From positions 372,001-436,000 of the forward strand of contig NZ_JASAOI010000002.1 of assembly GCF_029953285.1 (NCBI RefSeq): a stretch of DNA of 64,000 nucleotides, given 5' to 3'. The stretch's first letter is position 1. Every line of letters starts with the position of its first letter. This document shows, in pieces, positions 37,470-40,651 of this stretch. The notes under the pieces were generated by a model. It was not told the DNA's origin. It did not search any database and saw only the letters and a list, made by a program, of their open reading frames with translations. This DNA is from Yinghuangia seranimata (lineage in GTDB: Bacteria; Actinomycetota; Actinomycetes; Streptomycetales; Streptomycetaceae). Both the position numbers and the translations under genes were made by a program.

Positions 37470-37523
37470 CCTGCGCGCCGGTCCGACCTGACCCCCCACA
37501 CCCCGGCCTGACCAGGCCGGTAT

Positions 37524-37572
37524 GACGAGGGCCCCTCCGCCTACGGGAGCAGCGGAGGGGCCCTCGTTCGCG
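37524..37572. terminator. Terminator, copy 1 of a duplicated element
   Basis: A 14-bp perfect stem (37527-37540 with 37552-37565) and an 11-nt loop follow the P450 gene. The 49-bp stretch is repeated in direct orientation at 37901-37949 with only four differences. Confidence 0.8.
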
Positions 37573-37696
37573 TTCGTGCCGCTCCGGTGAAAACCCGGTC
37601 GCCCCCAACGCGGCACCCACTTAGCCTTGTTCCACGCGGGCGTTGAGCACGGGGACGCACTCCGCGACGTACCACCCCCCGTCCATTCGGGGGCAT

Positions 37697-37769
37697 TGGC
37701 TTGTAGCTCAGAGGTCAGAGCACCCGGCTCCAACCCGGGGTGTCGCAGGTTCGACTCCTGCCAGGCCAG
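37697..37769 (+). tRNA. tRNA-Trp (CCA), atypical
   Basis: A complete cloverleaf: acceptor TGGCTTG/CAGGCCA (one G-T pair), D-arm GCTC/GAGC, anticodon stem CCCGG/CCGGG with loop CTCCAAC (anticodon CCA), variable GTGTC, T-arm GCAGG/CCTGC with loop TTCGACT. The discriminator base is G, as required for Trp. It starts with a U1-A72 pair, rare outside glutamine tRNAs, and its stems differ from the usual actinomycete tRNA-Trp, so it may be a second isoacceptor. No CCA is encoded directly at the 3' end. The next tRNA starts 6 bp later, so they form one transcript. Confidence 0.85.
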
Positions 37770-37774
37770 CACCA

Positions 37775-37860
37775 GGAGGGTTGCCAGAGCTGGTAATGGG
37801 TCCGCCCGCTAAGCGGAAGCCCCGGGAGACCGGGCGCGCGTTCGAATCGCGCACCCTCCG
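37775..37860 (+). tRNA. tRNA-Ser (GCU), atypical position 33
   Basis: Acceptor GGAGGGT/ACCCTCC with discriminator G, short D-stem CCA/TGG, anticodon stem TCCGC/GCGGA, loop CCGCTAA (anticodon GCT), a long variable arm (CCCGG/CCGGG, GAGA loop) typical of serine tRNAs, and T-arm GCGCG/CGCGC with TTCGAAT. Position 33, almost always U, is C here (base 37807). That weakens the U-turn and is very unusual for a tRNA used in translation. It directly follows the atypical tRNA-Trp. Confidence 0.82.
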
Positions 37861-37900
37861 CTCGTGAACACCGTTCGGTCGATGCATCGGAAGAGGCATT

Positions 37901-37949
37901 GACGAAGGCCCCTCCGTCTGCGGGAGCAGCGGAGGGGCCCTCGTTCGTG
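37901..37949. terminator. Terminator, copy 2 of the duplicated element
   Basis: Nearly the same as 37524-37572 (45 of 49 bases identical), again GGCCCCTCC paired with GGAGGGGCC. It ends both the tRNA transcript and the converging MarR transcript. Confidence 0.78.
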
Positions 37950-37951
37950 CG

Positions 37952-38374
37952 CTAGTCGTCGATCTTGGCCAGGAGGGTTTCCAGGGCGGCCAGTTCGTCG
38001 GGGGTCAGGCGGGAGAGGGTGGCCGGGGGCTCGGCGAGGATGGCTTCGGCTCGGCGGGCGATCTCGTGGCCTGCTTCGGTGGGGCTGACGAGCTTGGCGC
38101 GGCGGTCGTCGGGGTCGACGGCGCGGGTGACGAGGCCGCGCTGTTCGAGGTCGTCCACGAGGAGGGTCATGTACGGCTTGTCGGTGACCATCTCGGCCGC
38201 CAGTTCGCTCATCCGCATCGGTCCGCGCGCGAGGCGGCGTAGGACGCGGCTGCGGGCGAAGCTCATGCCGGTGGCGTCGATGACCTCGCGGCGGCGGTCG
38301 GAGGACTCCAGGACCAGGCGCCGCATGCGGGCGAAGACCCGGCTGGCGGCTGCGCGTTGCTCGTCGTCGTTCAT
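37952..38374 (-). CDS. MarR-family regulator
   Basis: This 140-residue winged-helix repressor has recognition region MRMSELAAEMVTDKPYMTLL followed by the wing with DPDDRRAKLV, typical of MarR. ATG at 38374 overlaps the stop of the upstream MFS gene (ATGA), so the two are translationally coupled. In most MarR/pump pairs the regulator is first or divergent; here it follows the pump. The likely operator is the dyad at 39829-39871 before the MFS gene, which would give autoregulation of the whole operon. Confidence 0.9.
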   Translation of the reverse strand: MNDDEQRAAASRVFARMRRLVLESSDRRREVIDATGMSFARSRVLRRLARGPMRMSELAAEMVTDKPYMTLLVDDLEQRGLVTRAVDPDDRRAKLVSPTEAGHEIARRAEAILAEPPATLSRLTPDELAALETLLAKIDD

Positions 38375-39816
38375 GGTGTGGGGATCGGCGTCCTGGATTC
38401 CGTCGGGCTGAGCTGGGCGGCGACGCGGGCGGCCGACCTCGCGGCCGCCGGGCCAGTGGTGAGGATACCCAGCAGGACGACGGCCAGGCCACAGCCGGTG
38501 ATCATCCACCAGCCGACGTGGCTGGCGGCCGCGAAACCGTCGTGCAGCGGGCCGCCCACGGAGGACACGACCACGGAGACGATGACGGCGATGCCCAGCG
38601 ACTGGCCGGTCATCCGGCTGGTGGTGGCCACGGCCGCAGCGACGCCGGCCTGGCTGCGGGGCATGCCGGAGACGGCGGTGTTGGTGATCGGCGCGTTGAT
38701 CATCCCGAAGCCGAGGCCGAGCACGAGGTACGCGGCGATCAGCTGGGCGGTCGAGGTGTCGTCGCTCAGGCCGGTCAGCAGCAGTGCGCCGACGGCGATG
38801 GCGGCTCCCGCGATCAGCAGCGACGGGCGCGGGCCGCGGGCGGCGACGAGGCGTCCGGACACGGGGGAGAACAGCGCGGTCATCGCCGCGACCGGCAGCG
38901 TGTAGAGGCCGGCCTTGGCCGCGCTGTAGCCGAGCACGTCCTGCAGGTACACGGTGTTGAGGAAAAGGAACGCGCCGAGCGAGGCGAACCCGCACACGGC
39001 GGTGACGGTCGCGCCGGCGAACGGCACGCTGCGGAAGAACCTCGGGTCGATGAGCGGTTCGGTGCGGCGCGACTCCCAGCGGACGAACACGATCAGCGCG
39101 GCCGCCGCGACGGCGAGCCCGGCGATCGTGCGCGGCGCGGTCCAGCCGACGCCGGGCGCCTCGATGAGGGTGAACGTCAGGGAGGCCAGCAGCACGATCA
39201 TGAGGACCTGGCCGACGGGGTCGGGGCGCCGCGCGTGCTCGGCGCGGGACTCCGGGATGTAGCGCTGCGCGAGCGCTATCCCGGCGATGCCGACCGGGAT
39301 GTTGATCAGGAAGACGGCCTCCCACCCGACCGTGCCCACGAGCGCGCCGCCGACCACCGGGCCGAGCGCCATGCTGAGGCCGAAGACGCCGCCCCAGATG
39401 CCGATGGCGCGGGCACGTTCGGCCGGGTCGGTGAAGGTGTTCGTGACGATCGACATCGCCACCGGGTTGAGCATCGAGCCGCCTATGGCCTGGACGACGC
39501 GTGCCGCGATGAGCCAGTTGAGTCCGGGCGCGAGGCTGCACAGCAGTGAGCCGACCGTGAACAGCGCGAGTCCGGTCTGGAAGGTGCGGCGGCGGCCGAT
39601 CCGGTCGCCGGTGGAGCCGGCCAGCATCAGCAGGCTCGCCATGACGACGGTGTACGCGTTGACGACCCACTGCAGTCCGGAGACCGGGGCGTGCAGGTCG
39701 TCCTGGATGGCGGGGAGCGCGACGTTCACGATCGTGGCGTCGATGCCGACGATGAACAGGCTCATGCAGCAGATCGCCAGGATCAGCGCTCGTCTGCGGG
39801 GGGTGGACTCAGGCAT
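38371..39816 (-). CDS. MFS drug efflux transporter, DHA2 (EmrB/QacA) type
   Basis: This 481-residue transporter should have 14 membrane helices. It shows the family motifs IVNVALPAIQDDL in helix 1, GDRIGRRRTF (motif A) and LGPVVGGALV (motif C, antiporter signature) in helix 5. It would expel a drug-like compound in exchange for protons. It is the first gene of a two-gene operon with MarR; the start at 39816 lies 13 bp from a 43-bp nested dyad. The substrate is unknown. Confidence 0.92.
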   Translation of the reverse strand: MPESTPRRRALILAICCMSLFIVGIDATIVNVALPAIQDDLHAPVSGLQWVVNAYTVVMASLLMLAGSTGDRIGRRRTFQTGLALFTVGSLLCSLAPGLNWLIAARVVQAIGGSMLNPVAMSIVTNTFTDPAERARAIGIWGGVFGLSMALGPVVGGALVGTVGWEAVFLINIPVGIAGIALAQRYIPESRAEHARRPDPVGQVLMIVLLASLTFTLIEAPGVGWTAPRTIAGLAVAAAALIVFVRWESRRTEPLIDPRFFRSVPFAGATVTAVCGFASLGAFLFLNTVYLQDVLGYSAAKAGLYTLPVAAMTALFSPVSGRLVAARGPRPSLLIAGAAIAVGALLLTGLSDDTSTAQLIAAYLVLGLGFGMINAPITNTAVSGMPRSQAGVAAAVATTSRMTGQSLGIAVIVSVVVSSVGGPLHDGFAAASHVGWWMITGCGLAVVLLGILTTGPAAARSAARVAAQLSPTESRTPIPTP

Positions 39817-39828
39817 GGAGGTCTCCCG

Positions 39829-39871
39829 AGATAGTTCAGAATCTATAACAGTTATGAGACTACAACTATCT
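39829..39871. promoter_or_regulatory. MarR operator: nested dyad
   Basis: AGATAGTT (39829-39836) pairs with AACTATCT (39864-39871), and inside it ATAAC-A-GTTAT (39845-39855) has the same centre at 39850. It is AT-rich, lies just upstream of the MFS start and overlaps its likely promoter. The arrangement fits a MarR dimer binding the inner site with a second site around it. Confidence 0.75.
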
Positions 39872-39942
39872 TCGGGCGTGCGAAAGGGGAGGCCCGGCGG
39901 GGGCCGGGCCTCTGGGTGTCGTGCGGTGCTGTCGGGGGCGGG

Positions 39943-40473
39943 TCAGCCGCCGAGCGTCGCCCAGCCGTACGTCGGGCACGGCCAGCGGTGGCCGCACTCC
40001 GCGCAGGTGCCGTCGTCCGTGCGGGTGTGCGCCTCGGCGATGCGGGCGAGCCGGACCGCGGCGGAGGGGGTGTCCGGGGCGTTGCTCGAAGCGGCGTCCT
40101 CGTCCGCGCGTCCGACGGCCGCGAGCTCGGCCAGCGCCTGCTGCCAGTCGCGGAAGCGGATCGCGCGGTCGTCCAGGTATGCGTGCGCGGCCAGCTTGCG
40201 GTTGGTGACCAGCACCGTGCCGCGGGTGTTCCAGAACTTGCGGGCCCGCGTCGTGTCCGCCTTCGCCGGGACGCCCCGCTCGTTCAGCCACTCGGCGACC
40301 TGGTCGACGGCGCGGGTGGTGAACACGAACACCGCGTCGTCGGCCAGGAGGAGGTGCAGCGCGTCCAACGCGCCCGGCAGCGGCGGGTCGTAGATCGTGC
40401 CGTCGTGCCAGCCGCGGGAGTAGGCGTGGATGACGCCGTCGAAGTCGACGGCCAGAGTGCGCGAACGGGGCAT
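39943..40473 (-). CDS. HAD-like phosphatase domain protein with Cys-rich tail
   Basis: This 176-residue protein begins with the HAD motif (LAVDFDGVIHAY) and has motif-II and -III-like segments (VFVFTTRA, then ARKFWNTRGTVLVTNRK and HAYLDDRAIRF with the final DD). The first 120 residues are thus a small HAD hydrolase, of a kind also common in phages. The last 50 residues have a CAECGHRWPCPTY segment that may bind zinc. ATG at 40473 gives the normal N-terminus. The substrate is unknown. Confidence 0.78.
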   Translation of the reverse strand: MPRSRTLAVDFDGVIHAYSRGWHDGTIYDPPLPGALDALHLLLADDAVFVFTTRAVDQVAEWLNERGVPAKADTTRARKFWNTRGTVLVTNRKLAAHAYLDDRAIRFRDWQQALAELAAVGRADEDAASSNAPDTPSAAVRLARIAEAHTRTDDGTCAECGHRWPCPTYGWATLGG

Positions 40474-40651
40474 GGCTTGATCGTCGCATCCCGGCCTTTC
40501 GGCCGGTGGATCATGTCCGGCCTGCGGTGATTCAGCCGTTCTGGTCGTCCCAGCCGTGTCACGGAATCCCGCATTCCGGGGTTCGTACGCTCGTACGGGT
40601 GGCGCGTCGCTAGGGTTCCGGGAGCCGAGCCGTTCCCAGGAGACACCCATC

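Follow-up and report, generated by a model that had tools for sequence, protein, structure and literature searches.

A mobile-type tRNA-Trp and tRNA-Ser(GCU) pair in a Yinghuangia genome, and the recurrence of C33 in mobile and clustered tRNAs

Two adjacent tRNA genes, an extra tRNA-Trp(CCA) and an extra tRNA-Ser(GCU), were found in the window (the whole 64-kb stretch of DNA analysed, in contig 22 of genome G000, which has 9.8 Mb in 113 contigs), and their mobile-type origin is well supported. The pair may be a small remnant of a phage- or plasmid-type tRNA cluster, kept intact and still fit for translation, absent from two genomes of the same genus and perhaps retained as a backup against tRNA nucleases; taken as a whole, we regard this reading as evenly balanced between right and wrong. 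The tRNA-Ser carries C at position 33, where the base, a near-universal U, is taken as fixed in elongator tRNAs. Such a C33 is rare, yet it recurs, and its concentration among mobile tRNAs most deserves further attention.

Two intact genes beside the host's own tRNAs

The tRNA-Trp(CCA) gene (37697–37769) and the tRNA-Ser(GCU) gene (37775–37860) lie on the forward strand and are the only two tRNA genes found by ARAGORN in the window; this program places their ends one base further, at 37770 and 37861. The Rfam tRNA model returns the shorter bounds with 65.1 bits for tRNA-Trp and 51.4 bits for tRNA-Ser, at a cut-off of 29 bits, which bears out the statement of the first-pass annotation that both genes form complete cloverleafs. 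All four stems are paired in both, and U8, GG, G53, T54, U55, C56, A58 and C61 are retained, so that neither gene has the broken stems or lost core positions of a tRNA pseudogene. Of the features of a functional elongator tRNA, a cloverleaf above the Rfam cut-off is present in both genes, and U33 is present in tRNA-Trp and replaced by C33 in tRNA-Ser. The minimum-energy fold of tRNA-Trp is the cloverleaf; in that of tRNA-Ser, which has a long variable arm, the acceptor, anticodon and T arms are kept and the D and variable arms are slightly shifted. Three further details reported earlier were confirmed: the U1-A72 pair in the tRNA-Trp acceptor stem (UGGCUUG/CAGGCCA, with one G-U pair and followed by G73), the C33 in the tRNA-Ser anticodon loop (CCGCUAA, giving C32 and C33; this tRNA also has G73), and the spacer of 5 bases, CACCA, between the genes. 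This close spacing suggests that both tRNAs are carried on one transcript. A consensus scan of 37470–37960 returned no promoter-like and no terminator-like sites.

The 60 Rfam tRNA matches of G000 were gathered and typed with ARAGORN. Among them, contig 108 carries a standard tRNA-Trp(CCA) with A1-U72 and contig 31 a standard tRNA-Ser(GCU) with U33, and one trpS and one serS gene exceed the family cut-offs in the genome. The window genes are therefore extra copies, as had been suspected, and the possibility that they are the sole genes of their kind, the same in all relatives, falls away because the standard copies exist. A second TrpRS or SerRS gene, suggested earlier as a thing to look for, was rejected: none exceeds the cut-off in G000, where two weak serS matches lie below it. 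In the anticodon loop, the window tRNAs differ from the host isoacceptors by C38 in place of A38 in tRNA-Trp and by C33 in place of U33 in tRNA-Ser. The claim that U1-A72 breaks a strong rule held only in part. The pair is unusual for a tRNA-Trp; however, no general rule is broken, since the tRNA-Asn of G000 also has U1-A72 by its sequence, as do 6 of 79 tRNA-Trp cores described below. Two other peculiarities of the tRNA set of G000 were observed. The sole tRNA-Leu(UAG) found (C44:11612-11686, L076) has 76 nt and is devoid of a long variable arm, and clustered tRNA-Leu(CAG) and tRNA-Leu(GAG) of other genomes are likewise short. At C80:18409-18555 (L082), adjoining tRNA-like genes typed as Gly and Gln are separated by a 1-bp gap and have T loops without the TTC motif.

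A stretch absent from two genomes of the genus

The pair lies within a stretch, 37562–40595, that is absent from both other genomes of the genus (G018 and G001). In these, a P450 gene and an Excalibur/PASTA gene adjoin each other, with 377 bp between them in G018 and about 355 bp in G001 by BLAST, whereas in the window the same two genes are about 3.0 kb apart. The tRNA pair was found in neither genome, which speaks against the conservation in relatives that the first-pass annotation had named as support. Besides the pair, the stretch contains a second hairpin, a MarR-family regulator gene (37952–38374, reverse strand), an MFS transporter gene (38371–39765, reverse strand) and a gene for a small HAD-like protein (39943–40473, reverse strand). 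The first hairpin (37523–37570, forward strand), located 3' of the P450 gene, is a probable terminator and the reference copy of a 48-nt direct repeat; the second copy (37900–37947), 94% identical, lies between the tRNA-Ser gene and the converging MarR gene and is also a probable terminator, which folds strongly (z -6.5), has no T tract and was missed by the consensus scan.

The HAD-like protein was recognised by eye and by weak Pfam matches, and it matches PHROG 1238 at 3.2e-16. Relatives were found in five phage and seven plasmid records; among 200 family genomes 40 have the gene (its own genome included), and none was found in G018 or G001. The depositors labelled the phage relatives "Polynucleotide kinase" and gave one copy the name phosphoheptose isomerase. 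An assignment to HAD_SAK_2 was dropped, the Pfam match being not significant (E 0.13); the only match to a solved structure has an E value of 0.27, and BLASTP lent no support to homology with the HAD genes that adjoin the tRNA arrays of two plasmids. Because the site is short in both genus-mates and the HAD-like gene is absent there, the sequence comparison makes it most likely that the pair was gained, or swapped in for other sequence, in the lineage of the window; loss in the genus-mates is the alternative and not the most likely reading. Among ten neighbour proteins analysed with Pfam, nine belong to ordinary families (Rieske oxygenase, TetR, P450, MarR, MFS, DUF4328, FMN reductase, glycosyl hydrolase 25 and Excalibur/PASTA), one has none, and no integrase or phage structural gene was found.

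Between the P450 and Excalibur genes of G018 (C18:23620-23727; 19620-19727 of L133, reverse strand) lies an RNA similar to YrlA, a Y RNA with tRNA-like features. It scores 42.4 bits, below the family cut-off of 69, and no TROVE gene was seen near it; in view of this match, a split or permuted tRNA at the site was rejected. G000 has one YrlA-type RNA, on contig 41, adjoining a gene for a TROVE-domain protein.

Relatives of the two tRNAs and the base at position 33

When 200 family genomes were searched at the DNA level, the matches listed included extra tRNA-Trp genes in other genera, either single or in clusters of 2–10 tRNAs. Five listed matches extend from query position 56 or 59 to 172 and so take in the end of the first tRNA and the whole Ser gene; the tRNA encoded upstream in them is of the Leu(GAG) or Gln(CTG) type. 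Apart from the window, no whole-pair match was present among the matches listed for the 200 family genomes, and a search of 394 class genomes with E 1e-9 listed none either. Compared with the host isoacceptors, mobile or clustered tRNAs are the closer relatives of both window tRNAs. Two pattern searches yielded four viral contigs in all, and in two of them (L131 and L132) the tRNA-Trp shares 57 of 58 body bases with that of the window and has another acceptor stem. The same tRNA-Trp is also found in Herbiconiux solani (L245), and for this reason L132 may be a provirus of that species. In a phage DNA search, the best matches of the Trp gene were tRNA-Asn genes and other isoacceptors, and the Ser gene alone gave three short matches. 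The suggestion that the pair are decaying duplicates finds no support here, as the nearest kin are extra, clustered or viral-contig tRNAs and the conserved positions checked are kept except for C33.

The acceptor stem of the window tRNA-Trp is nearest to that of a clustered tRNA-Arg(ACG), from which it differs at 1 of 14 bases, and this likeness makes it likely that U1-A72 belongs to an acceptor stem common to the isoacceptors of such clusters. It is best read in this way, and a functional signal is disfavoured. In 79 distinct tRNA-Trp cores gathered by similarity, the first pair is A1-U72 in 62, G1-U72 in 8, U1-A72 in 6 and another in 3; U1-A72 is ordinary for mobile-type tRNA genes. G73 is present in 77 of the 79 cores, and the bases of the stems vary while pairing is kept, with exceptions mainly at pair 6 (6/79) and pair 31 (11/79). 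C38 occurs in seven cores, originating from the window, from clusters of at least two tRNAs and from viral contigs. However, other clustered tRNA-Trp genes keep A38 (e.g., L035, L043, L162, L185 and L234), and C38 is therefore not a mark of all clusters. Close to the cluster L084 are a portal gene (88.5 bits) and a weak match to a terminase (22.8 bits against 22.6), and both protein groups are also present at L086; other tRNA clusters adjoin ordinary metabolic genes. A pattern scan of named genomes returned 108 stretches, of which 93 have no other tRNA by ARAGORN. Since most of them start with A1 and only four have C38 (L178, L207, L208 and L245), most belong to another subclass, which occurs in Streptomyces or else in Frankiales, whose standard tRNA-Trp gene it may be. 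The solitary tRNA-Trp of this second type (A1-U72, A38; L144–L250, genome contigs) is widespread in Streptomyces and has no common neighbour. When the called genes of 110 loci (the 108 stretches and two viral loci) were clustered, no gene group occurred in more than 18 loci, and a conserved neighbour gene for this tRNA-Trp class was rejected.

Among tRNA-Ser(GCU) genes, those closest in score to the window gene are a single one in G018 (L096) and one on a Nonomuraea plasmid (L273); both have U33, so that C33 is private to the window gene among its near kin. Of 53 distinct tRNAs in G000, only the window tRNA-Ser has C33. A first count gave C33 in 7 of 261 distinct tRNAs. In the extended count, whose sample is not random, the 528 distinct tRNAs of mobile or clustered origin, the window left out, include 22 with C33, and the 197 host tRNAs include none. 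By group, it was found in 5/91 phage tRNAs (7 loci), 11/303 plasmid tRNAs (14 loci), 1/13 tRNAs of viral contigs (4 loci) and 5/121 tRNAs of chromosomal clusters (16 loci), the last with one additional G33; two of the C33 calls, both from L266, are doubtful by eye. The 22 tRNAs are spread over 12 of the 41 loci and 15 isoacceptors. The host tRNAs comprise 47 of G000 (window pair omitted), 45 of G001 (two of 57 matches omitted) and 105 of four other class genomes. When the other conserved positions were used as a filter, this strict set had C33 in 19 of 493 mobile or clustered tRNAs and in none of 188 host tRNAs. Fisher values of 0.0011, and of 0.0030 for the strict set, treat related tRNAs as independent and, the sample being non-random, are only a guide. 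The mobile or clustered loci were collected by similarity to the window pair and to one cluster, and proteobacteria are the hosts of two of the seven phages; for the four other class genomes (G200–G203), the best-scoring part of 188 matches was taken, and this tilts the host set towards regular tRNAs.

Base-33 deviations in the mobile set comprise 22 C, one G and no A, and a preponderance of 22 out of 23 suggests a constraint at this base. At positions 53, 55, 56 and 61, no group has more than two deviating tRNAs, and position 54 deviates in 18 of 303 plasmid tRNAs (against 11 for position 33) and in 7 of 197 host tRNAs. In three family genomes (L095, L097 and L100) a recurring cluster was observed, composed of Gln, Ser(GCU), sometimes a second Ser, and an odd tRNA-Tyr; the Ser(CGA) of L095 has C33. 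Among the open-licence papers that literature searches listed, no title or abstract opening describes C33 in phage or plasmid tRNAs, and the main text of one study of phage tRNAs contains neither "u33" nor "position 33" (PMC10264068).

Possible roles and comparison with known systems

If the pair is a remnant, a mobile tRNA cluster of phage or plasmid type would have been reduced to two genes on the chromosome. Since the anticodons and G73 are kept, we infer that the tRNAs would be charged by the single TrpRS and SerRS of the host, and they would read UGG and AGC/AGU. Less surely, they could have brought from the mobile element the role of sustaining translation once host tRNAs have been cleaved by a tRNA nuclease, in which case C38 in tRNA-Trp and C33 in tRNA-Ser might make the altered anticodon loops poorer nuclease substrates, and the pair would perhaps serve as a backup for the cut host tRNAs. 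In phage tRNAs, anticodon-loop changes were proposed to resist host tRNA nucleases (PMC10264068), and the tRNA-Lys of T5 is uncut by AriB; single changes taken from it give the tRNA of E. coli complete or partial protection (PMC12409363). However, tRNA-Ser(gct) is carried by phages and yet is not a target of the nucleases considered in the former study, so C33 in a tRNA-Ser(GCU) is not predicted by the data given there (PMC10264068). Also against this role, a search of G000 for one nuclease fold, the PIN domain, gave only two matches, C66:9774-10148 and C110:249053-249427; their scores and frame lengths are identical, and they are possibly a duplicated or doubly assembled stretch.

The main rival, which we consider the less probable though a serious one, is that the pair is a neutral leftover, which arrived with a mobile element, is well formed as the gain is recent, and has no notable function, with C33 as tolerated drift. 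The pair may indeed be young, being missing from both genus-mates and unmatched as a whole among the matches listed for the family and class genomes, and the U33 of L096 and L273 fits a private change. Drift accords less well with the bias of base-33 changes towards C, and every other conserved position checked is kept in both genes. The opposite proposal, that C33 is a convergent and selected mark of mobile-element tRNAs, by which the anticodon loop is hidden from tRNA nucleases or host modification enzymes, is tentative and in our view rather improbable. If it is true, C would replace U33 as the base that still permits decoding, at the cost of slower decoding, and the window tRNA-Ser would be a shielded tRNA kept by a bacterium, which it might itself protect. 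The count of base 33 makes a testable pattern out of one odd base, and if nucleases read U33, the distribution of C33 would be explained and would provide a simple sequence mark for nuclease-evading tRNAs.

An ordinary boost of translation, in which the extra genes raise the decoding of UGG and AGC/AGU codons in host or element genes, is unlikely. It agrees with intact tRNAs, standard anticodons and G73, and with the frequency of solitary extra tRNA-Trp genes in Streptomyces (93 of the 108 stretches, a set that includes Frankiales, where the gene may be the standard one). However, C33 would be an odd choice for this purpose, as a reduction of decoding is expected from it, mutations of position 33 being said to degrade efficiency (PMC3664417). 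In a yeast tRNA-Gln, U33C led to a growth phenotype that the authors tie to poor decoding or charging, and U33G did not (PMC3664417). For mycobacteriophage tRNAs, no fit to codon use was found (PMC10264068). A use outside decoding (tRNA-dependent biosynthesis or regulation, as proposed in the first-pass annotation, or cell wall), favoured by the unusual loop and the nearby P450, Rieske oxygenase and TetR genes, is very improbable, as no enzyme using aminoacyl-tRNA is encoded among the ten neighbours by Pfam and no second synthetase gene exceeds the cut-off in the genome, the P450/TetR/Rieske region is common to G018, which has no pair, and relatives of the window tRNAs adjoin unrelated genes.

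The reading as a cluster remnant with a possible protective role can be set beside known systems. The nuclease-evading tRNAs of phages are, like the window pair, redundant with host tRNAs and changed in the anticodon loop (PMC10264068); in contrast to them, the pair is chromosomal with no phage recognised, and evasion by it is putative. In the tRNA region of Streptomyces phage Comrade (L361), genes are annotated as a Ro-like RNA-binding protein, a tmRNA and an RNA ligase, and in two Curtobacterium plasmid regions with tRNA matches, genes are annotated as RNA ligase and HAD, which Pfam confirms for one of the two regions. The nearest kin of the window tRNA-Trp are found in chromosome or prophage clusters of Streptomycetaceae (L032, L033, L037, L038 and L044), in which tRNA-Trp has C38 as in the window and several of which also hold Ser(GCU); they differ in having 5 to 10 tRNAs by ARAGORN, another gene order and, where Ser(GCU) is present, U33. 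A tRNA array unit is a dense array of about 20 or more tRNA genes, a size to which two genes in 64 kb do not come near. The units of mycobacterial genomes, plasmids and phages resemble the window in being redundant in anticodon and different in sequence, and plasmid arrays were termed a putative antidefense system (PMC12803027). The arrays of M. avium contain 26 to 27 tRNAs against two in the window (PMC12803027), and the M. avium array plasmid pS2b (L265) carries, like the window, a tRNA-Ser(GCU) with C33.
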